From Dehalococcoidales bacterium (GTDB taxonomy: Bacteria > Chloroflexota > Dehalococcoidia > Dehalococcoidales > RBG-16-60-22), in NCBI GenBank assembly GCA_016930185.1, contig JAFGHK010000029.1, positions 1-33,721 on the forward strand: 33,721 bases of DNA, written 5' to 3'. The notes under the pieces were generated by a model, which saw only the letters and a list, made by a program, of their open reading frames with translations, was not told where the DNA came from and searched no databases. Below are positions 8,026-23,086 of the stretch, piece after piece. Positions within the stretch are counted from its first letter, which is position 1, and the number at the start of each line of letters is the position of its first letter. The translations under genes were made by a program, and so were the position numbers.

Positions 8026-8733
8026 TTAGGTGACTGAAGCCGGTGAAGTCGCTATGTGATAGCCCACGCCGGGGATAGTCTGGATGTACTTGGGGTTCTT
8101 GGGGTCGGGCTCCAGCTTCCGCCGCAGCCGCCCGACGAATACGCGCAGGTACTCCTTTTCCGATGAGTATTCATTTCCCCAGACGCTTTGCAGCAGCATG
8201 TTATGGGTCAGAACTTTATCCGAGTTGACCGCCAGGTGCTGCAGCAGGGCAAATTCCGTAGGCGTAAGCGTTATCTCCTTGCCGTCTACCGTCACGCGCC
8301 GCTTGGCGTAGTTGATTTCCAGCCCGTCGCAGGCAAACGTAGCCTGGGCAGGGGCTACGGATGGGTCGCCGCGGTGGCGGAAGGCGGTCTTAATCCTCGC
8401 CAGAAGCTCGGCAATACCGAAAGGCTTCGTTAGATAATCGTCCGCGCCCAGCTCGAGGCATTTTACCTTATCGTTCTCGTCGCCGCGGGCGCTAAGGATA
8501 ATTATAGGTACGTCCGACCACTCCCTTATGCGGCGGCAGACTTCAACACCGTCAACTTTAGGCATCATCAGGTCCAGGATAATCAGGTCGACGAAATCTC
8601 TCTGGACCGCTTCCAGTGACTCTTCTCCGTCGGTGGCGGTGTAGATTTCATAACCCCGCGCCTTGAGATTGGTGCTAAGTAGCCTCAATATCGCCGGGTC
8701 GTCATCCACGATGAGTATATGTTTCTTGTCCAT
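8026..8733 (-). CDS. OmpR/PhoB-family response regulator
   Basis: The real start is ATG 8733 (MDKKHILIVDDD), with AAAGGGGG just upstream; the ORF track extends 37 codons too far, into the kinase gene. The 235-residue protein has a canonical receiver (acidic residues 10-12, phosphoacceptor Asp54 in LIILDLMMP, Lys in YLTKPF) and a C-terminal winged helix (TPTEFALLQHLA, then VFVGRLRRKLE and IQTIPGVGYHI), so it binds DNA when phosphorylated. It is the last gene of a four-gene signalling operon, 14 bp after the hybrid kinase and ended by a terminator. This bacterial type of regulator is one sign that the window is not archaeal. Targets are unknown. Confidence 0.95.
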   Translation of the reverse strand: MDKKHILIVDDDPAILRLLSTNLKARGYEIYTATDGEESLEAVQRDFVDLIILDLMMPKVDGVEVCRRIREWSDVPIIILSARGDENDKVKCLELGADDYLTKPFGIAELLARIKTAFRHRGDPSVAPAQATFACDGLEINYAKRRVTVDGKEITLTPTEFALLQHLAVNSDKVLTHNMLLQSVWGNEYSSEKEYLRVFVGRLRRKLEPDPKNPKYIQTIPGVGYHIATSPASVT

Positions 8734-8747
8734 GGCTATGTCCCCCT

Positions 8748-10364
8748 TTAGTCCAGTGGAAGACTGAAACTGAATTTTGCCCCACTCCCCGGTTTGCTTT
8801 CCACCCAGATTTTTCCCCCATGAGCTTCGATAATGCCCTGGCAAATGGCCAGCCCCAGTCCGGTTCCCTTTCTCCGTCCGGCCTTGCGCCCGTCTCCCTG
8901 GAAAAATCTCTCGAATATCTTCTGGTGCAGTTCCGGACTGATGCCGATGCCTTCATCGGCCACGCTGATTGTTGCTTTTTTATTATTATGAGTAGCTTTA
9001 ATATAGATATCTGTATCGTCATCGGAGAACTTTACCGCGTTTTCCACGAGGTTGGTAAGCACTTCACCGATGCGGCCTTCATCGATGTTTAGCGTTGTTA
9101 TTTCTTTGGCAATATTAATGTGGAGGCGGTGCTTGACGGTCAGGTTGTCCAGCCGGTCTTTAATAGCCTTTATAACATCGGATAAATTGACTTTCTTTTT
9201 CTTGACTTCCAATGCATTGGCTTCCAGACGGGATATCATCAGGAGGTCATCTACCAGTCGTGTTAGCGTATCGGCGTCCTTATCGATAGATAGCAGGAAA
9301 TCACGCCGCGTCTGGTCGTCAAAAATAACGTCCGGCTGCAGCAGGCTGTTGGCGGAGCCTTTTATCACCGCAAGGGGCGTGCGCAGTTCATGCGATACGT
9401 TGGCCAGGAAAGCGGTGCGCATGGAGTCCAGTTCCCGTAATGCTCTGGCGCTGGAGGCTTCTTCATATAGCTGTGCGTTCCTTACGGCAATGGCTATCTC
9501 CCTCCCGATGCCGTTAAGCAGGTCTATATTGTTGGGACTGAAAATCTGGTTAAAGTCCGTGGCGATTCCCAGCACCCCGATATTTTCGCCCAGAATCGTC
9601 AGAGGCACGCCGGCGAAGGAGCGGTAGTCCGCCTTTTTAAGGAATTTTAGGTCGGACTCCTCGAGCTTTGCCATGTCTTCTATAATCATTGCCCCGGACT
9701 GCTCGGTAAGGTTGCTGAATATGCCCTCCGTACCGGAGACCTTTTTAGGTATGTCCTTGATTATTGTCATCGGCAGTCCGTGGTGGCCCATGAATTTCAA
9801 ATGGTCTTTTTCCCGCAGGTACACGAAGCTAGCTTCCACGCCGGTGCACTCGGCCACTTTTTCCAGGGCGGTATCGATTATTTCCTGCAGGTCCAGCGTC
9901 TGCGCCACTGCCTGTGAAACCGTGAGGAGTGTGTTGGTGATATGATTATGGCGCTCAAGCTCGTTCACCAGCTGGCGGTTTTCAAAGACCAGACGTTGTT
10001 TTTCCAGGCCTTTGTTAATGACTGTCAGAAGATTTTCCGGGTCTACGGGTTTTTCAAGATAGGCGAAAGCGCCCCGGTTCAGCGACTGCACGGCGTTTTT
10101 CACCGATGAATGCCCGGTCAGCATAATCGTGACGATATCCGGATGCAGTGCTAGAATATTGGAAAGAAGTTCCGTACCGTCGGCATCGGGCAGGCTAATA
10201 TCCAAGATGGCAGCATTATAGAAGCCCTTTTTCAGCAGTGATATCGCCTCGCCGGCCGAAGGTACAGCGCTGATTTTATAACCCTTCTTTTCCAGTATCT
10301 TGCGGATAATGTCCAGGAAATCCCGGTCGTCATCCACTACCATTATGCTTTCGTTGGTTTTCAT
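8748..10364 (-). CDS. Hybrid sensor kinase: receiver-GAF-HisKA-HATPase
   Basis: This 538-residue soluble kinase starts with an intact receiver (VVDDDRDF, phosphoacceptor in AILDISLPD near residue 55, Lys in YLEKP). A GAF-like sensory domain follows at about 150-300, then a dimerisation/phosphorylation helix with SHELRTP (His about 325) and an ATPase domain with N-box (LTNLVENAVKFS), G1 (ADEGIGIS), F-box and G2 (GTGLGLAI). The ATG abuts the stop of the double-receiver gene (TAAATG), so translation is coupled. The domain order suggests it is controlled by an upstream phosphorelay as well as by a GAF ligand, and passes phosphate to the OmpR-type regulator next door. Confidence 0.95.
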   Translation of the reverse strand: MKTNESIMVVDDDRDFLDIIRKILEKKGYKISAVPSAGEAISLLKKGFYNAAILDISLPDADGTELLSNILALHPDIVTIMLTGHSSVKNAVQSLNRGAFAYLEKPVDPENLLTVINKGLEKQRLVFENRQLVNELERHNHITNTLLTVSQAVAQTLDLQEIIDTALEKVAECTGVEASFVYLREKDHLKFMGHHGLPMTIIKDIPKKVSGTEGIFSNLTEQSGAMIIEDMAKLEESDLKFLKKADYRSFAGVPLTILGENIGVLGIATDFNQIFSPNNIDLLNGIGREIAIAVRNAQLYEEASSARALRELDSMRTAFLANVSHELRTPLAVIKGSANSLLQPDVIFDDQTRRDFLLSIDKDADTLTRLVDDLLMISRLEANALEVKKKKVNLSDVIKAIKDRLDNLTVKHRLHINIAKEITTLNIDEGRIGEVLTNLVENAVKFSDDDTDIYIKATHNNKKATISVADEGIGISPELHQKIFERFFQGDGRKAGRRKGTGLGLAICQGIIEAHGGKIWVESKPGSGAKFSFSLPLD

Positions 10365-11111
10365 TTACTTCTCGTTTTTATTCTTCTTTCCGGTTATTTT
10401 CTTGACAAGCTCGGCGGCGATGGAGGGGTCGAAGGGTTTGTAAAGACAGGTTATCGCAGATGCCGCCTGTGCTTTATCCAGTGCTTCCTTTACTTCGTTG
10501 CGGAATCCGGTCATCATTATCACGATGATATCCGGGTTTATTTCCTTTAGCCTTAACAGCGTTTCCAGACCGTCTATCTTCGGCAGCTTGATATCGATAA
10601 AGGCTATCTGAAAGGATGTACCCTTTGTCATCGTCACTGCCTCTTCTCCGCTCTTGGCTGATAAGACTTCATATCCCTGTACCTCAAGGATTTGCGTTAA
10701 AGTCTCGCAGATGTCCGCGTCGTCATCCACGATGAGAATCGGCTCGTTGCCGGCTGTCTCATTTATCAGGTCGATTAGCTGGTCGATATGTATCGGTTTA
10801 TGGATAATCCGGCGGGCGCCCTCGTTTTTAGCGTTTTGAATTAAATCCTCGTCGGAATAGGCCGTCATTAGAATAATCGGCGCTTCCGGCTGTATTTCCT
10901 TAATTTTCTTAAAAGCATCGACGCCGTTCATCTCTGGCATCACGATATCCATCAATGTGACGTCAAAATTCTGCTCTTTAAATTTATTAATAGCAGACAC
11001 CCCATCATTGGCTGTCTGGACATAGTATCCCCGACGCTTTAGAATCATGGCGAAAGTTTCCAGTAAGTCCTGGTTGTCATCGACTACGAGAATCGTCGGT
11101 TTGTTTTTCAT
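10365..11111 (-). CDS. Tandem double-receiver response regulator
   Basis: The preferred start is ATG 11111 (MKNKPTILVVDDN) with AAAGGAG inside the last codons of the upstream kinase; the track uses a TTG 24 bases earlier. The 248-residue protein is two receiver domains without an output domain. The first has VVDDN, a phosphoacceptor in TLMDIVMP and Lys in IIHKPI; the second has IVDDDAD, FIDIKLPKIDG and LYKPFD. Both active sites look intact. It lies between two kinases and most probably works as a phosphate-transfer or phosphate-sink protein between them. Confidence 0.93.
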   Translation of the reverse strand: MKNKPTILVVDDNQDLLETFAMILKRRGYYVQTANDGVSAINKFKEQNFDVTLMDIVMPEMNGVDAFKKIKEIQPEAPIILMTAYSDEDLIQNAKNEGARRIIHKPIHIDQLIDLINETAGNEPILIVDDDADICETLTQILEVQGYEVLSAKSGEEAVTMTKGTSFQIAFIDIKLPKIDGLETLLRLKEINPDIIVIMMTGFRNEVKEALDKAQAASAITCLYKPFDPSIAAELVKKITGKKNKNEK

Positions 11112-11118
11112 AGTAATT

Positions 11119-12621
11119 TTAGCTCCTTTGCTCAATCGGTAGTTTCACGGTAAACTTTGTGCCCTTGCCCACCTGGCTTGATACTTCCATTTTTCCGCCG
11201 TTTTGCTCGACTAGTCTCTTGGAAATAGCCAGGCCCAGACCGATACCTTTGGGCTTGGTGGTGAAGAGGGGCTCGAATATCTTTTCTAGATTTTCCTTGG
11301 GAATGCCGCAGCCGGTGTCCTGGAAAATAACCGCTACGTGGTCCCTGTCTGTTTCAGTACTTATATTCACTTCTCCGGCCTTCCCGTTCATTGCCTGCAC
11401 GGCATTGGAGATGAGGTTGGAAAAGACCCGGTTCATCTGCTCGGGGTCGGTCTTTATAAATTTTGGCTGACCGTTCAGGTTCACGTTTACAGTTACATGT
11501 TCCGTTGGGGTAATCCAGGATAGACTCTCGTCGATTAAGCTCTTTAAATCGGCCTTGACTTGGGTCGGCGGTTTAATACGGGTGAAGTCCAGCAGGTCGG
11601 ACACTATCTTATTAGCAATATCGATTTGTTTGTCCAGCACTTTCAGCGTATTTGTGGCCTCTTCATCGGATTTTTCAGCCAGGGCCATATTCAGCAGATA
11701 GGCGCAATTCCTGATTACGTTCAAAGGATTACGCAGTTCATGCCCGACGCCTGAAGCCAGTTCACCCACTGCGGCCAGCCGCTCCGAGCGGATAAGCTTT
11801 TCCTGCACATGTTCCAGGTCTTTGGTCCTGTTATCCACCTCTTTTTCCAGTTGTTCGTAATAGCCGCGCAGCGACTGCTCTAGTTCCACCTGGCGGATGG
11901 CGCCCCCGATTCTCTCGGAGAGCGTTTTGGTCAGGTGGTTTTTCTTCTTTAAATAGGGATTATCGCGGTTGGAATATATCTCCACGATGCCGGTGTTTTC
12001 CCCGTTAATCATCAGGTTCTCGGATACTTTGTTGGTATTTTTCTGGAAGTTGGGGCTTTTATATACCTGGTCGTGGAAAGTGATTCTTACGCTGGTTCCT
12101 TCCGGGTATTGTGTCGCCCGGGGGATTATGGCTACTACTTTACCCAGGAACTCATCGACAGAGTTGCTGTCTCCAGCCGCCTTGCCGATGTCATAAAGGC
12201 ATTTCATCTCCTTTATTCTCTGCTGGTGCTCCTTTTCGCTCTTTTGCAGCATAGCCACAACCGCGCCTACTGCGCTAAGGATGATGACGAATGCCGTGGG
12301 TTTAAAAAGGGCGTTGGGGTATGTGTCTATAAGAATAGCATGAGGCAGTAGGACAAACATCGACACCAGCGCCGTTAATATAGATGGTATTACGCCTAGA
12401 AAATAGGCTGAATATACAACCGGTGCAAAAAATACCAGACCCAGGAAGTCGATCCCGTATAAGTTGTGGAGGTTATTAAGTGAATCTTGGACGCTTATAA
12501 AGCCGAGACGCCCGCTAATCGTGGGTAAATAGTAGATAATTGCACAGAGCGCCATTAGGGCTATAACATAACGCAGTTGTTTATTAGCCCATATTCCCTT
12601 TTTATTACGTTTATAACTCAT
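11119..12621 (-). CDS. Membrane sensor histidine kinase
   Basis: This 500-residue kinase has about four membrane segments in its first 125 residues (for example YVIALMALCAIIYYLP, LGLVFFAPVVYSAYFLG, FVIILSAVGAVVAML), a GAF-like linker around 140-240 and a coiled coil. A HisKA domain with GHELRNPLNV (His about 294) and an ATPase domain with N-box, DTGCGIP and GIGLGLAI follow. It is the first gene of the phosphorelay operon that continues with the double receiver, the hybrid kinase and the OmpR regulator. It lies just downstream of the archaellum operon in the same direction, about 215 bp away, so control of motility is possible but unproven. Confidence 0.95.
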   Translation of the reverse strand: MSYKRNKKGIWANKQLRYVIALMALCAIIYYLPTISGRLGFISVQDSLNNLHNLYGIDFLGLVFFAPVVYSAYFLGVIPSILTALVSMFVLLPHAILIDTYPNALFKPTAFVIILSAVGAVVAMLQKSEKEHQQRIKEMKCLYDIGKAAGDSNSVDEFLGKVVAIIPRATQYPEGTSVRITFHDQVYKSPNFQKNTNKVSENLMINGENTGIVEIYSNRDNPYLKKKNHLTKTLSERIGGAIRQVELEQSLRGYYEQLEKEVDNRTKDLEHVQEKLIRSERLAAVGELASGVGHELRNPLNVIRNCAYLLNMALAEKSDEEATNTLKVLDKQIDIANKIVSDLLDFTRIKPPTQVKADLKSLIDESLSWITPTEHVTVNVNLNGQPKFIKTDPEQMNRVFSNLISNAVQAMNGKAGEVNISTETDRDHVAVIFQDTGCGIPKENLEKIFEPLFTTKPKGIGLGLAISKRLVEQNGGKMEVSSQVGKGTKFTVKLPIEQRS

Positions 12622-13426: not shown

Positions 13427-15238
13427 TTAGCGGAAATATCCCTCACGGTATGCTTTAGATAATATAGAATAGACTTCATAAAAATTAGTTTTTCTCTGTT
13501 CGGTAATGCGTTTTAAGACCTCTGCTCTTTGTCGTACCATCCTGTATATTTGGCGGCGCTTTCCTTCCGGGAAACCGCGCCGCGGTGCAATCTTGTTTTC
13601 CAGTAAATAGGAGTTCTGGTTGCCGCGGAAAATAAAGGTATCATCCAGCGGATTCCAGTTGAAAATTTCAATGAAAGAAAATGCGTCGGCTATAGAATCA
13701 TAGTTTACGATTTCATTAATGCTGGTAAGGCGCCTGGCTAGATGACCGCTTGAAAGGCGCACCTGCTGGCAGATAGCAATCACGTTAAGGTTATCCACAT
13801 ATGATTTCGGTACGTTAATAGGGTTGCCGGTAATACGCTGGATAAGCTTGGCAACCGAAGCGGCGTGGAAGGTGCTCATGCAGGCGTGGCCTGTCTGCAT
13901 CGCCTGAAAAGCAACGGAGCCTTCGACACCACGAATCTCACCCACGATAATAAGGTTAGGTCTTTGCCGCAGGGCAGCTTTGAGGAGGTCGAACATAGAT
14001 ATTTCGGCAGCATCACTTTGTTTACCGGTACCGCGAGTAACCCCGCGAATCCAGTTATGGTGCGGCACCTGCACTTCAGGGGTATCCTCGATACTCACTA
14101 TCTTGGATTCCGGGGGGATGAAGGTGGTCAGCGCATTCATCATGGTGGTCTTGCCGGAGGCCGTTTCCCCGGATACCCAGATATTCATACCTTCCTGGAT
14201 TACAAGTGATAGATAGGCGGCCATTTCATAATTAAGTGTGTTGAACTGGATAAGCTCCAGTATGCTCATCGGTGTATCGCTGAATTTACGAATAGTAAAG
14301 TTGCTTCCCCTTTTAGAGACATCGTTACCATAAACGATATTGATACGGGAACCGTCGGGCAAGGTAGCGTCGACTACCGGCACACGGAATGTCACGGGAT
14401 GCTTGATGCTTTCGGCCAGTTCGATAACGAATTTATCCAGTGAATCCTCGGACTCGAACCCGATATTGGTGCGCAGACCACCGAAAATTTTATGCTCCAC
14501 GAAGATATGGCCGAGACCGGAACATGAAATATCTTCAATATACGGGTCATGTATCATCGGGTCTAGGACACCCATGCCTTCCAGCTTGCGCTTAAGTAAA
14601 TACCGCAGGCTGTTGTACTGGAACCGGGTAACTGGTATTCGCCCCTGTACTTCCTTTTTTGATAGTTGGGATTCATCCCCGTTTTTCTTGCTCTTGATTT
14701 TACCGGTAAGATTCTTGTGACCGTTGTTTTTAGTCTTCCCGGTTTTCTGACGGGCTACTACCTTTCCGTTATCGGAAACATATACAATTCTATCGACTAT
14801 GTCCATGATAACATTCAGTCGGTTTGATGATTCAAGTATATCGGTTAGTTCTTCTACATGTTCCGCCAGATGTAATTCTGTTTCTTCAAGGATATTTTCA
14901 TGAGTGTCAATAATGCTGGGCTCGATGGCAATGTAATAATCCCTGATATCTTCAGAATTAGGCATGATGTGAATGTACACTCCGTTATCGGTTTTGTAGA
15001 TAATATTTGGGTCTTTCATGCCCAGCATTTTCAGCGTTATTTTTTCATAATATTTGGGTATTTCCATTGTATCGAGGGGCAGCATGTACAGGTATTGGAG
15101 TAGATGCAAATTACTCTTACACTCATTCTGTAAGTCCTCCGGCAATTTCTGGTATAAAGGACACTTATCCAGTTTGGTGCCGCAGGTACCGCCGCATTCC
15201 TGGGGGCATGGTTTTATTTCAAAGGGATAATAGTTCAC
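13427..15238 (-). CDS. arlI: Archaellum motor ATPase ArlI (FlaI)
   Basis: This 603-residue protein of the type II/IV secretion ATPase superfamily is the hexameric motor that drives archaellum assembly and rotation. It starts at GTG 15238 with AGGAGAG upstream (an in-frame ATG is absent). Walker A is GETASGKTT near residue 360, the Asp box is SIEDTPEVQVP, Walker B is PNLIIVGEIRG, and the His box is GHACMSTFHA. The first 40 residues carry five Cys (11, 15, 19, 26, 40: CPQECGGTCGTKLDKC), an unusual cluster that could hold zinc or an iron-sulfur centre. A Lys-rich insert lies near 165-190. The gene follows ArlH with overlapping signals. ArlI is preferred over a pilus ATPase because of the neighbouring archaellins, ArlH and ArlJ. 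Confidence 0.93.
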   Translation of the reverse strand: MNYYPFEIKPCPQECGGTCGTKLDKCPLYQKLPEDLQNECKSNLHLLQYLYMLPLDTMEIPKYYEKITLKMLGMKDPNIIYKTDNGVYIHIMPNSEDIRDYYIAIEPSIIDTHENILEETELHLAEHVEELTDILESSNRLNVIMDIVDRIVYVSDNGKVVARQKTGKTKNNGHKNLTGKIKSKKNGDESQLSKKEVQGRIPVTRFQYNSLRYLLKRKLEGMGVLDPMIHDPYIEDISCSGLGHIFVEHKIFGGLRTNIGFESEDSLDKFVIELAESIKHPVTFRVPVVDATLPDGSRINIVYGNDVSKRGSNFTIRKFSDTPMSILELIQFNTLNYEMAAYLSLVIQEGMNIWVSGETASGKTTMMNALTTFIPPESKIVSIEDTPEVQVPHHNWIRGVTRGTGKQSDAAEISMFDLLKAALRQRPNLIIVGEIRGVEGSVAFQAMQTGHACMSTFHAASVAKLIQRITGNPINVPKSYVDNLNVIAICQQVRLSSGHLARRLTSINEIVNYDSIADAFSFIEIFNWNPLDDTFIFRGNQNSYLLENKIAPRRGFPEGKRRQIYRMVRQRAEVLKRITEQRKTNFYEVYSILSKAYREGYFR

Positions 15239-15246
15239 ATGCTCTC

Positions 15247-15963
15247 CTAGACTCTGGCTTTAGCCAGAGGAATAATTCTCATCCCAAGCCTGGGCTCGAT
15301 ATTAAAGCTGACCACGTCTCCGGTGGGACGGTCAGCACCGCGTACTTTCAATACCTCCATTAGCTTTATCATGCTTTCGCCGACCTGTTCCAGGCGCAAC
15401 TTAAAACGTGCATCGCAAAGCGAGCGTGTTCTCGAAAGAATGTCCTCCTCAAAGGCGTAAGAATGTGCCACAACGATTATCGTCTTCCCCTGGTCGCACA
15501 GGGATTTGCATCTGGAAAAGAAATCAATAATTGCCACCGGCTCGCTGTGCGCCACCAGCAGGGTAATCGAATCGATAATTATCAGCTTGAATTCTTGAGG
15601 GAGATTGGAAAAATGGTGTGTCAGCACCAGGAAGGGTTTGTGCCCGTGAGGCAAACCGCTGCGGAAAGTCAGCGGGAAAATTCTCAAGCGGTCAGCCAGA
15701 AAATGGTCCATGATATTCATGTTAAGGGAGTCCATCTGGCTAATCAGGCTTCTGATATTATTTTCCGTGGTGTAATAGGCTACTGAAATTTCCGCGTTTA
15801 GTAGCGTGCCGTTTGTAAGATGCTGGCATAATACGCTTTTACCGGCATCGGAGTGTCCTTCAACGAGGCAGAGAGAACACAGCGGAATGCCTCCGCCTAG
15901 TTTATCATCAACTTCAACTATTCCGGTAACTATGGCTTCTTTCTTTTTATCGCTTTTAAACAT
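15247..15963 (-). CDS. arlH: Archaellum regulatory ATP-binding protein ArlH (FlaH)
   Basis: This KaiC/RecA-like protein partners ArlI in archaella and acts through nucleotide binding. The start is taken as ATG 15963 (MFKSDKK) because GGAGAGGTG sits at the right distance; the track's GTG at 15972 overlaps that site. This gives 238 residues. Walker A is GHSDAGKSVL near residue 36 and a Walker B-like strand is LIIIDSITLL near 130. The overall pattern (GGGIPLCSLCLVEG, then the P-loop, YYTTEN, VVAHS) is that of ArlH. It lies between the ArlD/E-like gene and ArlI, its partner in the motor. Confidence 0.92.
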   Translation of the reverse strand: MFKSDKKKEAIVTGIVEVDDKLGGGIPLCSLCLVEGHSDAGKSVLCQHLTNGTLLNAEISVAYYTTENNIRSLISQMDSLNMNIMDHFLADRLRIFPLTFRSGLPHGHKPFLVLTHHFSNLPQEFKLIIIDSITLLVAHSEPVAIIDFFSRCKSLCDQGKTIIVVAHSYAFEEDILSRTRSLCDARFKLRLEQVGESMIKLMEVLKVRGADRPTGDVVSFNIEPRLGMRIIPLAKARV

Positions 15964-16004
15964 ATAAATCACCTCTCCTGCCGGAGCATACGTTTTTCCT
16001 GCAG

Positions 16005-17042
16005 CTAACTATCAACATTCTCTTCCGGTGTCAGATTGATACAGAACTCCTTGCTTTTACCGTTGCCTCCGGGAAATACAAGCTTTAGTTTCGCCGATTT
16101 CTCCTTGTTTTTATCAACTTCGATTATTTCTTCATCGGACAATGCTTCCGCTTCATCGCTGATGTCCACCCAAGACGGTATTACCGGATTAAGCGGGGCA
16201 TCACCGCCGGTAAGGACCCCATGCAGCGATAATATGGACTGGCTCCAGATTTCGGGTTCGTTAGCTACTTCGGAATAGTCATTAACTATTTCAGCAAGAT
16301 GAAGAATAATGTCCTTCATCTCCGGTGACAGGTGGCCGCTCGTGCCATAGACCTCCAGTAATGCCGGGAGCTGTTCGCTCCCTATTTCCTGCCTGGCTTT
16401 CGCTACCCAGTTTATCAGGTTAGCCAGCATGTTGACCTTAGGTATTCCCCGGGCCTCTTCACTAACGGGTTGGTTATATTCCATAGGTTGTACCTCCTCT
16501 AGGGGTAACTCCGGTTCTTCTTCGGGTAACTCCTCGTTTTCGTCCTCTGTATTGTCGTCCGCCTCCTCTTCGTCAAGTTCATCTTCAGGCGGAAGCTCTT
16601 CTTCGGGTGAATTATCCTCTTCATCCTCATCAAATTCGTCGGGTAAATCTCCAGCTGCTTTCATGCTTTCAGGCGGCTGGTTTTCTTCAAACATACCGTC
16701 GTCAGGCTTTTCTTCGGGATATTCGTCTGTCTTATTATCCCCCTCCTCGAAATCAAGCATTTCTTCGTATTCACCCGGTTCTGCTTCATTTACGAGATTA
16801 TCATCTATTTTCTCCGGTTCAGGCATACCCCCTAATTTGTCGTTATCGACATGACTGTCAACATCCATCTTTTGAGGTTCTGCGTTATCACCGGCAAGAG
16901 CCGCTAAAATAGTTGAAAATTCCGAGGACGGCAATTCCATGTTCAGAAGATAATCACGAACACTCGCGAGAGAGTTTTTAACTTCCGCTTTTAGTAACTT
17001 GATTTCATCCTGTAGTATGTCAAGTCTGCTCTCTTCCACCAT
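16005..17042 (-). CDS. ArlD/E-like cytosolic ring protein with long acidic linker
   Basis: This 345-residue protein starts behind AGGAGG, which lies inside the last codons of the 57-residue gene upstream. It has a coiled coil at residues 1-45, a very acidic Glu/Asp/Pro-rich linker at about 55-195, and a folded domain at about 200-250. The domain's pattern (LINWVAKARQEIGSEQLPAL, then LEVYGTSGHLSPE) matches the archaeal FlaD/E domain, where W, G, L and Y-x3-G-x-[IL]-S are conserved. In Euryarchaeota ArlC/D/E proteins form a cytosolic ring that joins the motor to chemotaxis. The first 40 residues resemble those of the 57-residue neighbour (SVRDYLLNMELP against DIRAYLMEAQTP). The call rests on pattern and context; no profile search was possible. 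Confidence 0.75.
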   Translation of the reverse strand: MVEESRLDILQDEIKLLKAEVKNSLASVRDYLLNMELPSSEFSTILAALAGDNAEPQKMDVDSHVDNDKLGGMPEPEKIDDNLVNEAEPGEYEEMLDFEEGDNKTDEYPEEKPDDGMFEENQPPESMKAAGDLPDEFDEDEEDNSPEEELPPEDELDEEEADDNTEDENEELPEEEPELPLEEVQPMEYNQPVSEEARGIPKVNMLANLINWVAKARQEIGSEQLPALLEVYGTSGHLSPEMKDIILHLAEIVNDYSEVANEPEIWSQSILSLHGVLTGGDAPLNPVIPSWVDISDEAEALSDEEIIEVDKNKEKSAKLKLVFPGGNGKSKEFCINLTPEENVDS

Positions 17043-17234: not shown

Positions 17235-18746
17235 TTACATGTTGGAGACGGTAGTAAATAGCTGATTGGCCAGTGCCGGCAAAACAAGAAGGGCTGTGCC
17301 GGAAATGGCCGCTGTAATTCCCAGATTGCTGAAAATTTTATATTTACTGCCCCCCTCCGCCAGAGTCGGCACTATCGCATTTGCAACAGTAAATATTATT
17401 ACCAGAGGCAGCACCAGGTGTTGCATAATTTCCAGACCGGACAGGTTGAAACTGGAAAAAGTAGTTACGGTTTGCGTACTACCCATATTGGGTACGTCAG
17501 TCTGGGCTTGTGATAACAATCTTCCGAAGGCAACTATTACCTCGGTGATAAAGATTAAAATGGCAATAATCGCGGTATGCATGGTAATACAGAGCCAGCG
17601 GAAGGGACCGGATACCGTTCTGCGATGAGCGCGGAGCAGTGATAATTTATTGGCGAACAAAGCAGCCTGATTACCTGCCTCATCTGCCGAACCCCCCACT
17701 TCTATCGCGTCGTAGAACATACCTACGCTGCGGTTAGCCAGTTCGCTGCCGGTTTCATCTATAAACATTTTCCATGATAATCTTGATTTAATTCCGGCAG
17801 TGAGTCTGGTATGCAAATTCTTGACAGATGAACGTAAAATGTTGATGGCGTTAAAATCAATTCGTCCCAGAGCTGTGCTAACCGTTGTCTCCAGTGATGA
17901 ACAAACGCCTCCCAGAGAGCGTAAAAACGTCCCGACCTCATTGTCCCGCTTTATTATTTTTTTATCGTCCTTGGTCATGATATAACCGAGAGGGAAGACT
18001 ATAGCCGCAACTATGAGCAGTGCCACGCCAATATTTAGACCGGTAACTAAAAACACAATACTTACACCGATTGCTGCCGCCAGAACCGGCTTAAATAGCT
18101 TATTCGCAATTTTTTGTTCTTTAGAGCCTGGCCAATTCAGGATAATTTTTTCTTTCGGCGATACTACCCATATCAGCCAGACGCCGGTGGCAGTTACGGT
18201 CACAGAGATAAAAGCCATGGCTATTATGAGCGCTGTCTCGATTTTCCATATCATCGTTGAAACTATACCGATAACCACTACCAGAATTGCCGAAAGAATC
18301 AAGGAAACATAGGCATCCGTCCACATTTTCATCGCTTCCAGGTTTCTTTCATATTCGTTTTCATAGTCTTCGGCACGGGTAGTAGCTTCTCTGGAGAGGA
18401 AATCGGCTTCCGGTTCACCGGAAATCAGCGAACTGGAAAAACGCAGCAGCAGGCCTTTCATCTCTTCGTCTTTAGCCGGCTCTCCTATTGCCTGGCAAGC
18501 GCGAGCGTAATCATACTTCAACTGCCGGCGTGTTAGTTCCACTCTTTTAAAGTATTCGGCTGACGAGCATTGAATCTCGGCGGAGCGTTCGAAAATCTGG
18601 TCGCGCGGCACACCGGAAGCGGCTATCGTTGACATATAAGAGAGCTGATAATACAAATCAAAGCTCAACGCGATCTTACCGCGTTTCTTGCCCTTTTCAT
18701 CCTTGGCAAAGAACGGGAGTGCTCGTATCATTTTTACTATTTTCAT
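17235..18746 (-). CDS. arlJ: Archaellum membrane platform protein ArlJ (FlaJ)
   Basis: This 503-residue polytopic membrane protein is a relative of the type II secretion F / TadC platform. A cytoplasmic N-terminal part (about 1-140) precedes membrane segments near 145-200 and 215-260 (SLILSAILVVVIGIVSTMIW, LLIVAAIVFPLGYIM). A second charged cytoplasmic loop (about 262-380) and C-terminal segments (WLCITMHTAIIAILIFITEV, HLVLPLVIIFTVANAIVP, GITAAISGTALLVLPALA) follow, the two-loop layout of ArlJ. It anchors the ATPase ArlI and the growing filament. The ATG lies two bases after the stop of the long ArlF-like gene, so translation is coupled. In most archaea arlJ follows arlH-arlI; here it comes before the ring genes and H-I. 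Confidence 0.9.
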   Translation of the reverse strand: MKIVKMIRALPFFAKDEKGKKRGKIALSFDLYYQLSYMSTIAASGVPRDQIFERSAEIQCSSAEYFKRVELTRRQLKYDYARACQAIGEPAKDEEMKGLLLRFSSSLISGEPEADFLSREATTRAEDYENEYERNLEAMKMWTDAYVSLILSAILVVVIGIVSTMIWKIETALIIAMAFISVTVTATGVWLIWVVSPKEKIILNWPGSKEQKIANKLFKPVLAAAIGVSIVFLVTGLNIGVALLIVAAIVFPLGYIMTKDDKKIIKRDNEVGTFLRSLGGVCSSLETTVSTALGRIDFNAINILRSSVKNLHTRLTAGIKSRLSWKMFIDETGSELANRSVGMFYDAIEVGGSADEAGNQAALFANKLSLLRAHRRTVSGPFRWLCITMHTAIIAILIFITEVIVAFGRLLSQAQTDVPNMGSTQTVTTFSSFNLSGLEIMQHLVLPLVIIFTVANAIVPTLAEGGSKYKIFSNLGITAAISGTALLVLPALANQLFTTVSNM

Positions 18747-18748
18747 TT

Positions 18749-19840
18749 TTACGCTTCTATTCTCGTCTGGTCTGCAATAGGCAATTCATCATTATCTATG
18801 TCTATTAATACGTATCCACTATTTATCTTTTCTTTAGTTTCCCCGTAAAATTCAATAACCAGATAATCGTTCTCGTCCACCACCGTATAATCGGAAAATA
18901 TATAATTGCTGCTTACCGTTAACCACGTGCCTAGTTGGTCTCTATTAAACGTAACTTCGGCAGCCGGGGAGCCGTTGATAGTAGCTCTTACTGCACCGTA
19001 CGCAGACATTATCTTTATATCGATGTTTAAATAAAACCTGTCATTTACGGCGGTTAAAAATCCGGGTGAAAGGTAACAGCGGTAATTGACTGTCCAGGTA
19101 GCTGCCGGTATCTGGTCGATACCCACGAGCGGGTAGATAAACTGCGCCGGGCGGGTGGGTTGAGATTCGTTATAAAGCAGTTTCCTGGCAATCTCATTTT
19201 GTGCAAAATCTGCCATCATAATCATCGCTCTTCCGTCTGCCGGTGCCGCTTCCACCAGTTCGTAATATTCAGTGTTTGCGATGGTGATGTTCTCTGATTG
19301 GGGAGTAAGCCTTGTGTAGCCGAGATTCAAAAACGGCAGCGATGTATAAACACCGTTCGGAGCGGCAATGGCTACACTCCCGCTGGTGGCATTCCCCGAT
19401 AGCGGGTCCAGATAAACCAGGGCAACCATTTCCTCCAGCGGATTTAGAATGCCGGGCTCGAAGAACTCTATCGGCCCGTTAAGACCGATTCTGGACTTGA
19501 ACCATTCATTATTCAGCGGCAATGTAGTGCTGTAGGGCAGCCATATTGTATTTAAAGCACTGCCGTCATCTTCATATTTCACAATAAAGTCCCATTTATC
19601 ATAACCGGCCAGCTTGGTCTGGCCGTCGTTCTTTACCGTCACTCGTACGTAGTCCCCCCAGGAGAGCTTAACGGCACGTAGAATAGTCAGGTCCGTCCGT
19701 ACTATTTCACTCTCCAGGACACTTATTTTGTCGAAGTTAATTGCCGCTGTATCCGCCGATGTCAGTAAACCCTGTGACAACGCCATACCTCCCACCATAA
19801 TCATTGCGATACATATTACCGTTACTACTGCTGCTGCCAT
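18749..19840 (-). CDS. Long ArlF-like stator protein with extra C-terminal domain
   Basis: This 363-residue protein has one N-terminal membrane helix (VVTVICIAMIMVGGMALSQG). The next ~150 residues clearly parallel its neighbour ArlF (VKNDGQTKLAGYDKWDF against LKNTGQTKMADFEKWDV; FEPGILNPLEEM against FEPNVLNPGEEI). After about residue 170 come some 190 residues not present in the neighbour, probably an extracellular beta-rich domain (YLNIDIKI, YLVIEFYG, GYVLIDID). ArlF/G form the extracytoplasmic stator that in archaea touches the S-layer. The extension may bind this organism's own wall or S-layer. The start has GGGGAG upstream, and the gene is coupled to ArlJ. Confidence 0.82.
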   Translation of the reverse strand: MAAAVVTVICIAMIMVGGMALSQGLLTSADTAAINFDKISVLESEIVRTDLTILRAVKLSWGDYVRVTVKNDGQTKLAGYDKWDFIVKYEDDGSALNTIWLPYSTTLPLNNEWFKSRIGLNGPIEFFEPGILNPLEEMVALVYLDPLSGNATSGSVAIAAPNGVYTSLPFLNLGYTRLTPQSENITIANTEYYELVEAAPADGRAMIMMADFAQNEIARKLLYNESQPTRPAQFIYPLVGIDQIPAATWTVNYRCYLSPGFLTAVNDRFYLNIDIKIMSAYGAVRATINGSPAAEVTFNRDQLGTWLTVSSNYIFSDYTVVDENDYLVIEFYGETKEKINSGYVLIDIDNDELPIADQTRIEA

Positions 19841-19929: not shown

Positions 19930-20454
19930 TTAGGGTGAAAAGTAAGTTGAACTCGATATTCCGCTGGGCGTGGTTACCACCACCATATTGGTCGTACCCG
20001 GGCCTAATGACGGGTCGAGCCACGTTCTTATCATTATCTCTTCACCTGGATTCAATACATTCGGCTCGAACTTTTCGGCTGCGCCGTCCAGCCTTATCCA
20101 GCCTACTTCCCACTCGTAAATTCCGGCACCTCCCGGAGCGTAGGGCAGCCATTCCACGTGATAAACGCCGGAATCGTCATAATACTGGATGATAACATCC
20201 CATTTTTCAAAATCGGCCATCTTGGTCTGGCCTGTATTCTTGAGCACTATATCCAGAGGGTCCGCGCCAGCGATTAGTGATACATTTGTACTCATCGGTG
20301 TCAGCTCGGTTCTCATTATTGTTTCTGTTCTCTGTTCGATTTCACTAAGCCCTGCGGTACTGGAATCGACTGATGTCATAAATCCATGGGACATTGTCAT
20401 GCCCCCGAAAATCATCAGGGCTATGCAAATTAAAGAAATTATCGCAGTTTCCAT
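19930..20454 (-). CDS. arlF: Archaellum stator protein ArlF-like
   Basis: This 174-residue protein has an N-terminal membrane helix (AIISLICIALMIFGGMTMS) followed by a beta-sandwich-like domain. DIVLKNTGQTKMADFEKWDV fits the ArlF/archaellin-type strand pattern (x-N-x-G-x-T-x-L). The ATG at 20454 has GGAGCAGGAA upstream and lies 11 bp after the ArlG stop. It should sit on the outer face of the membrane as part of the stator around the filament. The domain is duplicated in the longer next gene. Assignment to ArlF rather than ArlG rests on the neighbouring gene, which fits ArlG better. Confidence 0.8.
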   Translation of the reverse strand: METAIISLICIALMIFGGMTMSHGFMTSVDSSTAGLSEIEQRTETIMRTELTPMSTNVSLIAGADPLDIVLKNTGQTKMADFEKWDVIIQYYDDSGVYHVEWLPYAPGGAGIYEWEVGWIRLDGAAEKFEPNVLNPGEEIMIRTWLDPSLGPGTTNMVVVTTPSGISSSTYFSP

Positions 20455-20465
20455 TTCCTGCTCCG

Positions 20466-20942
20466 TTACATGCTGAAATAAAACTCATCATATATTCCGT
20501 TAGGAATAATAAACTTGGCAAAATATGTTCCGGCACCCGGGTCGCTATCATATGTAACCGTTACTTTTATCGTAGCGCTGGTTCTCCATTCCGTATCATT
20601 TTCCAGTTCAAAAGACCAGCGTGGATAATCGCTGCCGGCATCAGTCAAGTAAGGAACGCGTTCGAAGTCATCCTCCTGCCCGAAGAACAGGTCGCTCTCC
20701 TCGACAGCCAGAATACGCTGGGTGCCTACGTTCTTTATCCATAAATAAACCACTGTACGGGTGGAGTTATTTGCCGCATGAACAATGTTAATCCGACTCT
20801 TCATCCGTTCGTCGACCTGTTCGGCCATGCTGGTCATAGCCTCGCTTGAACGGTTTATCATCGGATATACACTATTAAAGATAAATATCATACACACAAC
20901 CCCCGCTATGATTAGTAGAGCTGTTGTGATAGCTTTGTCCAC
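20466..20942 (-). CDS. arlG: Archaellum stator protein ArlG-like
   Basis: This 158-residue protein starts at GTG 20942 with GGAGG six bases upstream. It has an N-terminal membrane helix (ALLIIAGVVCMIFIFNSVYP), a helical stretch, then a beta domain with VYLWIKNVGTQRI and DLFFGQEDDFERVPY, which closely follows the archaeal ArlG pattern (KNxG, D-[VL]-F-[FL]-G, F-x-R-I/V-P-Y). It ends with FIIPNGIYDEFYF. In archaea ArlG filaments, capped by ArlF, anchor the motor outside the membrane. It is the first gene after the archaellins, behind a gap with a strong hairpin. Confidence 0.87.
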   Translation of the reverse strand: MDKAITTALLIIAGVVCMIFIFNSVYPMINRSSEAMTSMAEQVDERMKSRINIVHAANNSTRTVVYLWIKNVGTQRILAVEESDLFFGQEDDFERVPYLTDAGSDYPRWSFELENDTEWRTSATIKVTVTYDSDPGAGTYFAKFIIPNGIYDEFYFSM

Positions 20943-21104: not shown

Positions 21105-21737
21105 TTAGCGCAGGTTTATTATCTTATCGATATATGGCGGCGTTGTCCGCTCAATGGTGAGTATTGCACCGATTGGTGTCATCACCGTGATACTGAATCT
21201 TTGGTTAACGCTGAGGTCAGGGGCGAGTGCTTGTACAAGATTTCCTGCCGCTCCGCCGTCAATATCTCCTACGGTTATCTGGAATTTCTCACCGGTTTCC
21301 AGCAGATAATCGCCGTCATCGTTCCCCATCTTGTCAACGGTCCAATATAGGTCCGTTATCTGTTGAGCGTTATCGATGTAATTGATAACAACCTTATGGT
21401 CATTTCCCGTAGCTATACCAGCTGCACCGCCGGAAGGTTGGGTGAAGTCAACCGGTTCGCCACCGAGTACATTGGCTACGGTGAATGTCAATTGTCCGAT
21501 AGAACCACTGGCACCCGTAACGTTACCGGTAGCAATTATCCCTCCCTTGAGTTCCAGGGTGCTCTGGGCTTCTTTAAGCCCGGAATAGACCGCTTCCTGC
21601 GCTTTCTGGGTAGAAAAGAGGCCTGCGGAAAGGGCGGTGTAGGCAAAGACCGCGGCTACTACTACAAAGGCTATCAGGATAATAGCTGTCTCCAGCCCGG
21701 TGATGCCCTTTTCCTTCCTTAAGAACTTTCCATACAT
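21105..21737 (-). CDS. arlB: Archaellin ArlB3
   Basis: This 210-residue archaellin is a filament subunit. It has an 11-residue class III signal peptide ending KEKG, then ITGLETAIILIAFVVVAAVF, the archaeal consensus; cleavage is expected between Gly11 and Ile12. The hydrophobic helix continues as AYTALSAGLFSTQ and QEAVYSGL. The globular part has an NVT sequon near residue 72, and the C-terminus is TPPYIDKIINLR, again archaellin-like. It shares the first ~63 residues almost exactly with the two upstream copies. It is the third gene of the operon and is followed by a strong hairpin. There is no bacterial flagellin similarity. Confidence 0.95.
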   Translation of the reverse strand: MYGKFLRKEKGITGLETAIILIAFVVVAAVFAYTALSAGLFSTQKAQEAVYSGLKEAQSTLELKGGIIATGNVTGASGSIGQLTFTVANVLGGEPVDFTQPSGGAAGIATGNDHKVVINYIDNAQQITDLYWTVDKMGNDDGDYLLETGEKFQITVGDIDGGAAGNLVQALAPDLSVNQRFSITVMTPIGAILTIERTTPPYIDKIINLR

Positions 21738-21776: not shown

Positions 21777-22403
21777 TTAGCGCAAGTTCATGATTTTGTC
21801 GATGTAAGGCGGGGTAATTCTTTCAATCGTGAGTACAGCACCGAACGGTGTCATTATCACTAGACTGAAAGTCCTGTTAACGGTCAGGTCATCACCAAGA
21901 GCGTCAACGAGGTTTCCCTGTCCGCTCTGGCTGCCGACGGTAATCTGGAATTTTTCGCCGGTCTCCAGCAGCGAGTCGCCGTCATCGTTCCCCAGTTTGG
22001 TAACTGTCCAATAAAGATTGTCTATTGCTTGGTCGGAATCAAGATAGTTAATCACTACCTTATGGTCATTACCTGTAGCTATACCCCCTGCACCGTTTGA
22101 AGGCGGGGTGAAGTCAACAGGCTCGCCGCCGAGCACGTTGGCTACGGTGAAGGTGATTTCGCCAATACTGCCGGAATCACCGGTAACATTACCGGTAGCG
22201 ATTACAGCTCCCTTGAGTTCCAGGGTGCTCTGGGCCTCTTTAAGCCCGGAGTAGACTGCTTCCTGGGCCTTCTGGGTCGAGAAAAGACCCGCAGAAAGGG
22301 CAGTATAGGCGAAGACCGCGGCTACCACCACGAAAGCAATCAGGATGATAGCGGTCTCAAGGCCCGTAATGCCTTTCTCTTTTCCGATAAACTTCTTAAG
22401 CAT
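21777..22403 (-). CDS. arlB: Archaellin ArlB2
   Basis: This 208-residue archaellin has the signal peptide MLKKFIGKEKG followed by ITGLETA; cleavage is expected after Gly11. The body is most like ArlB3 (both have ATGNVTG, IATGNDHKVVINY and NDDGD-LLETGEKFQITVG). It has two N-x-T sequons, NVT near residue 72 and NRT near 177. Its C-terminus is TPPYIDKIMNLR. It lies 35 bp after ArlB1 and 39 bp before ArlB3, each with an AAGGAGAAAA-type ribosome binding site. At DNA level its 5' part is nearly identical to that of ArlB1, suggesting gene conversion. Confidence 0.95.
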   Translation of the reverse strand: MLKKFIGKEKGITGLETAIILIAFVVVAAVFAYTALSAGLFSTQKAQEAVYSGLKEAQSTLELKGAVIATGNVTGDSGSIGEITFTVANVLGGEPVDFTPPSNGAGGIATGNDHKVVINYLDSDQAIDNLYWTVTKLGNDDGDSLLETGEKFQITVGSQSGQGNLVDALGDDLTVNRTFSLVIMTPFGAVLTIERITPPYIDKIMNLR

Positions 22404-22438: not shown

Positions 22439-23086
22439 TTAGCGAAGATTCATTTTTGTATCTATGTAGGGTGGTGTGGTCCGTTCGATGACCAGTACAG
22501 CACCGATAGGCGTCACTATCTCAAGTGTGAAAGTATCGTTGACCGATAGGGCTTCGACGGATAGAGCATCGAGCAGGTTGCCGCCGTTTAACGTCTGGTC
22601 GTCAGAACCTATGGTAATCTGGAATTTCTCACCGGTCTCCAGCAGGTCATCGCCATCGGTGGTGCCTAGCGGAACGTATTCCCAGTAAAGATTGGTGACT
22701 ACCTGGTTCGCATCGATATAATTGATGACCACTTTGTTTGAACTGTTGTCTGCAGCTATACCGTTGTTAGTTGCGTCTTGATTTGGCATCGTGAAGTCAA
22801 CCGGCTCACCGCCGAGGACATTGGATACCACAAGAGTCAACTGCTTTATAGTACCGGTAGCGCCGGGAGTCCCGGCCGTAGCGATAATGCCGCCGCGCAG
22901 CTCTAACGTGCTCTGGGCTTCCTTAAGCCCGGAATAGACTGCCTCCTGGGCCTTCTGGGTCGAGAATAGACCCGCGGAAAGGGCGGTATAAGCAAAGACC
23001 GCGGCTACCACCACGAAGGCAATCAGGATGATAGCGGTCTCAAGGCCCGTTATACCTTTCTCTTTCTTAAAGTATTTGTCGTACAT
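22439..23086 (-). CDS. arlB: Archaellin ArlB1 (first gene of operon)
   Basis: This 215-residue archaellin starts at ATG 23086 behind AGGAGGAAAC. The signal peptide ends KKEKG, before ITGLETAIILIAF. Its globular part diverges most from the other two: it has NSSNK and a longer loop with DDQTLNGGNLLDALSVEALS, and sequons NSS and NDT. Its C-terminus is TPPYIDTKMNLR. Being first and most diverged, it may be the major filament protein or one with a special position, such as near the cell; which cannot be told here. Confidence 0.95.
   Translation of the reverse strand: MYDKYFKKEKGITGLETAIILIAFVVVAAVFAYTALSAGLFSTQKAQEAVYSGLKEAQSTLELRGGIIATAGTPGATGTIKQLTLVVSNVLGGEPVDFTMPNQDATNNGIAADNSSNKVVINYIDANQVVTNLYWEYVPLGTTDGDDLLETGEKFQITIGSDDQTLNGGNLLDALSVEALSVNDTFTLEIVTPIGAVLVIERTTPPYIDTKMNLR
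22900..23056 (-). repeat. Archaellin 5' repeat (copy 1 of 3)
   Basis: The segment coding from the signal-peptide cleavage site to about residue 62 occurs three times, here and near 22217-22373 and 21551-21707. The encoded protein is almost identical in all three. Between copies 1 and 2 a run of about 55 bp (ending AAGGCCCGT on the plus strand) differs by one base, while copy 3 carries many synonymous changes. Confidence 0.8.

Follow-up and report, generated by a model that had tools for sequence, protein, structure and literature searches.

In archaea the stator protein ArlF (FlaF) binds the S-layer, as reviewed in PMC8667602 and PMC13319060 and as said in the earlier note on this DNA. The archaeal models and structure that we used for comparison (S. 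acidocaldarius 4p94, 4zbh, 5tug and 6pbk; NCBIfam NF052590; PF22201) are only 137-146 residues long. They have an N-terminal helix without signal peptide, an Ig-like domain and an adjoining ArlG gene, all of which are shared by the protein that we describe here, which is nevertheless about 190 residues longer and stands beside a normal ArlF as an additional copy. Claims that such components are required have to be weakened, because T. acidophilum has no ArlG and archaea without an S-layer still swim (PMC12448462). In bacteria, the closest described case is the Chloroflexota archaellum of Litorilinea aerophila, which according to the available text of PMC12488501 and PMC13319060 is encoded by the same imported arl2-type locus. 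The same portions of these papers already note that arlF is duplicated in some Chloroflexota, and they mention no extra ArlF domain, whereas our protein carries one. Peptidoglycan is present in L. aerophila, for which a PilN/PilO-LysM anchor has been proposed, while the Dehalococcoidales lineage would not need such an anchor; how the archaellum is held in Chloroflexota without PilN/PilO is stated as an open question in the accessible part of PMC13319060.

The window, that is, the whole stretch of 33,721 nucleotides analysed, belongs to a 1.81-Mb metagenome-assembled genome (MAG) of the order Dehalococcoidales (Chloroflexota). The relatives compared were also MAGs, and the order also has groups whose genomes, of 1.4-2.1 Mb, are complete in a single contig. 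On the minus strand we found a complete archaellum locus with three arlB genes, arlG, arlF1, arlF2, arlJ, an acidic gene at the arlCDE position, arlH and arlI, as follows:

22439..23086, minus strand: arlB archaellin copy 3 (69% identity to copy 1)
21777..22403, minus strand: arlB archaellin copy 2 (81% identity to copy 1)
21105..21737, minus strand: arlB archaellin copy 1 (PF01917, 1.1e-23)
20466..20942, minus strand: arlG, 158 aa (NCBIfam ArlF/ArlG and Pfam; matches the G genes in relatives)
19930..20454, minus strand: arlF1, standard-size ArlF, 174 aa (Pfam Arch_flagellin / FlaF_Ig-like; F1 clade 100/96)
18749..19840, minus strand: arlF2, enlarged ArlF paralogue, 363 aa (ORF; ArlF profile 196 bits; kept in 12 family genomes)
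19751..19840, minus strand: N-terminal membrane helix, ArlF2 residues 1-30 (hydropathy peak at residue 3; without class III signal peptide)
19325..19750, minus strand: ArlF Ig-like (archaellin-fold) domain, ArlF2 residues 31-172 (identity to ArlF1; profile match to 4p94)
18752..19324, minus strand: extra domain, probably a jelly roll, ArlF2 residues 173-363 (extension profile, viral homologues, models, Foldseek; viral homology from residue ~178)
17235..18746, minus strand: arlJ membrane platform (NCBIfam ArlJ, 3.4e-112; start 2 nt past the arlF2 stop)
16005..17042, minus strand: probable gene of the arlCDE position (by its position and by BLAST matches to its counterpart in relatives; no Pfam match)
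15247..15972, minus strand: arlH (NCBIfam ArlH, 1e-55)
13427..15238, minus strand: arlI motor ATPase (NCBIfam archaellum ATPase, above cut-off)

The arlF2 reading frame was confirmed with an ATG start. The gap to arlF1 on its upstream side is 89 nt and that to arlJ on its downstream side 2 nt, and judging from this spacing the gene is almost certainly transcribed within the arl operon; the order G-F1-F2-J is also found in relatives with intact loci. Some other features of these loci can be mentioned here. The gene at 16005-17042 has a long and very acidic low-complexity middle, and its conservation between families is confined to the C-terminal part. Directly downstream of arlI, positions 8026-12621 hold a two-component cluster of two histidine kinases and response regulators. 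Seven other arl loci (L034, L035, L042, L043, L045, L046 and L047) have two tandem arlI-type ATPase genes, against one in the window.

As the earlier note had seen, the first part of ArlF2 resembles the adjacent ArlF: residues 1-170 align to ArlF1 with 38% identity (E 3.6e-34). The ArlF profile gave 196 bits on ArlF2, although residues 1-168 of F2 are themselves one of the 21 rows of this profile, and the ArlG and ArlB profiles gave no match on it. Among PDB sequences the best match was S. acidocaldarius FlaF 4p94, with E 7e-4 for the F2 family profile and 1.9e-10 for the ArlF set, whereas the NCBIfam ArlF model reached 16.6 bits against a cut-off of 110; ArlF1 was likewise below the cut-off. 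The protein starts with MAAAVVTVICIAM, with the helix at residue 3 and no class III signal peptide. Thus, ArlF2 has an Ig domain of the ArlF type, a position in the arl locus beside arlG and the signal-peptide-free helix of an ArlF, but its 363 residues exceed the usual 140-175 with one Ig domain, and we therefore regard it as a variant ArlF and not as a plain member. One difference from ArlF1 is at residue 2, where the acidic residue (E) is kept in all nine ArlF1 proteins and is gone from all nine F2, so that F2 may assemble in a different way from ArlF1. The N-terminal stretch is the only one of transmembrane grade by hydropathy, which would place the extension outside the membrane.

Residues ~177-363 form a single beta-rich domain of about 185-190 residues. 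The earlier note had called this part new, and probably extracellular and beta-rich, and our searches agree that it is new: there was no match in Pfam, NCBIfam, PHROG or PDB sequences, including any CBM family in Pfam, NCBIfam or the PDB, which is why we do not file the extension as a CBM. Pfam and profile searches gave no LysM, SLH or SPOR-type match in it either, and no OmpA-like or other peptidoglycan-binding domain. An AlphaFold model of the extension alone, built with only three sequences, showed eight beta strands (pLDDT ~60-79 over residues ~231-350, pTM 0.57); the model of the whole ArlF2 was poor (pLDDT 45) and the Foldseek list obtained from it was mostly noise. Against solved structures, Foldseek matched the extension to the jelly rolls of CBM22, CBM4-2, Fbs1/Fbs2 and BcsB, with probabilities mostly of 0.96-0.99 and TM scores of only about 0.25-0.3. 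These galactose-binding-like and CBM jelly rolls (PepX_C is another) have a similar strand arrangement, but given TM scores of about 0.25-0.35 for the group and no sequence match the likeness is only at the level of the class. Among viral models the extension matched tailed-phage proteins of the tail-fibre, baseplate and collagen-repeat kinds, at a probability of 1.0 and with E values as low as 3.8e-6; for several of them the rmsd was 3-5 A across ~120 residues. That the structural matches are modest is explained by the three sequences usable for the model. A second archaellin/Ig copy, arising from a tandem duplication of the ArlF domain, was rejected, since hhalign against the ArlF domain gave a probability of 0.1%.

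A sequence relationship was found in viruses. Scanning IMG/VR with the family alignment returned four contigs (L081-L084) with full-length homologues of the extension at 32-37% identity, and hhalign between the extension family and the viral proteins gave E 9.6e-36. Two of these contigs were checked and are genuine tailed viruses, one with a major capsid protein and a terminase and the other with a terminase, portal and tape measure. In the viral proteins, which have at least 640 residues and lie in the virion gene region, the domain is N-terminal, while in ArlF2 it is C-terminal. The ArlF2 extension is thus a full-length sequence homologue of a domain family of the tail region of tailed viruses. 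No phage or plasmid homologues were found in INPHARED and PLSDB, and beyond ArlF2 and the four viral contigs the only homologue was in one 1050-aa ArlF-like protein of another family (G776). Sequence and structure agree in pointing, with modest confidence, to a jelly roll of the viral-tail kind, the model itself being of low to medium confidence; sugar binding is suggested by the fold.

The same fusion, proposed by the earlier note as something to look for in other bacterial arl loci, was present in 12 family genomes (the host and 11 others), although the gene is partial at a contig end in some of them; in one further genome (G485) F2 ends with the contig at residue 162. Full-length F2 proteins in relatives had 39-78% identity. 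In the unsaturated within-genus comparisons the dN/dS of the extension was 0.14-0.20, similar to that of the ArlF domain, which indicates purifying selection. The recurrence of F2, the low dN/dS and the predicted strands mean that the extension is neither a chance reading frame nor disordered. The extension profile hit the host genome once. Within the order it picked out 12 of 156 genomes (one copy each, always on F2); among 393 genomes sampled across the class it picked out no others than the host and G776, and among 400 sampled from the phylum the host alone. The idea of a frequent, mobile surface domain in the host was therefore rejected. A tree built from 50 ArlF domains placed F2 in one clade (100/98) and F1 in another (100/96), so a single duplication or a single acquisition would explain the whole set; its support is for the two clades and does not extend to their deeper order. 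Two genomes of the same family (G481 and G482) have a complete arl locus with a single normal 174-aa ArlF and no extension, and the window itself retains a normal ArlF1; the extra domain is therefore not required, and the needed adaptation that the earlier note had supposed is not borne out.

Regarding the envelope, MraY was absent from all 31 family genomes searched, whereas 12 of 14 control genomes matched, 10 of those above the cut-off. It has been reported that peptidoglycan synthesis was lost before the Dehalococcoidales and that the outer layer in their class is an S-layer (PMC10284905). Therefore, the envelope of the host is archaea-like, contrary to the different wall assumed by the earlier note, and its reason for a new wall anchor fails. 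Its proposal of a local anchor survives in part: envelope binding is the likeliest role of the extension, because an extra beta-rich domain outside the membrane is of the type found in surface-binding proteins, but an anchor to peptidoglycan was rejected on account of the missing MraY and of an extension without any wall-binding domain.

Other ArlF proteins of the class are also altered. In the class sample, 9 of the 56 genomes with an ArlF match had an ArlF longer than 300 residues, and the order search added three more (G428, G430 and G451). Unrelated propellers or jelly rolls enlarge ArlF in at least five other Dehalococcoidia lineages, which was unexpected. Reading of the repeat pattern, with no Pfam match, suggests beta-propeller-like repeats between the helix and the Ig domain in G428 and G430 and after the Ig domain in G451. 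The ArlF of G594 (658 aa) has Kelch repeats and a loop insertion and adjoins a normal ArlF, that of G639 (923 aa) has a PD40/TolB-like propeller and adjoins a 357-aa ArlF, and G627, G679 and G698 have other insertions that look beta-rich, the G627 copy adjoining a normal ArlF. The G776 protein (L065:5341-8493) lies outside any arl locus and has several jelly-roll-like repeats, one of them matching PepX_C, with a split copy of the ArlF2 extension near its end. Except for this last part, hhalign found no homology between the extra parts of the other enlarged ArlFs and the ArlF2 extension. The Chloroflexota archaellum literature, in its available text, has no mention of recurrent enlargement, PMC12488501 having only 'duplication of arlF'. 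Tentatively, we consider it possible that ArlF in the peptidoglycan-less Dehalococcoidia is a repeatedly re-tooled anchor, to which independent lineages would have added viral-tail-type jelly rolls, beta-propellers and Kelch modules, often on a duplicate copy, matching fast-changing S-layer or surface-glycan partners as virus tail fibres do.

ArlF with unrelated large insertions or C-terminal additions was seen in the arl loci L034, L035, L066, L068, L069, L070 and L071. In family f11 the arlF of four genomes (G638, G822, G082 and G806; loci L100, L101, L104 and L105) lies in two frames, split at the same place by a conserved nine-T run, gcCTTTTTTTTTCCAGG, while arlF is intact in two relatives, which lack the T run and are one base shorter; we read this as probable programmed slippage of a stator gene, a shared homopolymer error being less likely.

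The reading of ArlF2 that we prefer, to which we give about an even chance from its position, family and fold, is as follows. One duplication of arlF would have given ArlF1 and ArlF2, and the ArlF2 copy would have gained a C-terminal jelly roll of ~185 residues, of a domain family otherwise found in tail-region proteins of tailed viruses. Both proteins would belong to the ArlG/ArlF stator, where ArlF2 would cap ArlG with its jelly roll facing outward, gripping the S-layer or its glycans and contributing to torque; the gene, its locus, the duplication, the conservation, the homology of the domain and the missing MraY are observed, whereas the placement in the stator, the ligand and the role in torque are what we infer. 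The locus position, the monophyly of F1 and F2, the dN/dS, the fold, the viral homologues and the lack of peptidoglycan count for it. Against it count the two relatives without the extension, the loss of the acidic residue in F2 and the modest fold matches, and also that an N-terminal domain in the viral proteins could be the part attaching to the virion and not the one binding a receptor. The chief rival, which we consider improbable but deserving attention, takes ArlF2 for an adhesin or a sensor at the cell surface. The duplication would have set this stator paralogue free to display its tail-fibre-like domain around the motor and to bind external glycans or particles, without taking part in torque. 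The missing acidic residue in nine of nine F2 fits this, as do an extension of viral-tail or sugar-binding type, the many unrelated modules added to ArlF in other lineages and the G776 relative outside an arl locus, but ArlF2 is strictly inside the arl operon and is kept only beside arlF1. The unchanged ArlF1 and the complete loci without extension fit both a grip on the S-layer and an adhesin or sensor.

It is unlikely that the extension serves only the structure of an enlarged stator cap, making contacts among ArlF1, ArlF2 and ArlG or setting the spacing in the pseudoperiplasm, and binds no envelope component: many of its conserved residues are of buried type (I, L, V, F) and no other host protein carries the domain, but its fold class is mostly ligand-binding and relatives with a single ArlF have no counterpart of it. 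Decorated pilins are common, and ArlF2 shares its fold family with the archaellins, so we also weighed whether it belongs to the filament as a minor subunit, at the tip or hook or as a decorated archaellin, and not to the stator; the missing class III signal peptide and a strong ArlF profile match next to none for ArlB make this very doubtful. An anchor to peptidoglycan or a bacterial wall is already largely refuted by the envelope results and by the lack of a LysM, SLH or SPOR-type match, and we give it hardly any credence, even though the host is a bacterium and PMC13319060 proposes PilO-LysM as an anchor of this kind for L. aerophila.

The ArlF2 extension is a concrete and conserved candidate for an anchoring part, and it sits on precisely the subunit that in archaea holds on to the S-layer. 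A natural comparison is provided by the family itself, in which some members have the extension and others lack it, and since ArlF has been enlarged repeatedly in the class, stator anchoring can be tested directly. Finally, the relationship with viral tail proteins suggests a mode of gripping the cell surface that may be shared by the motor and the virus.
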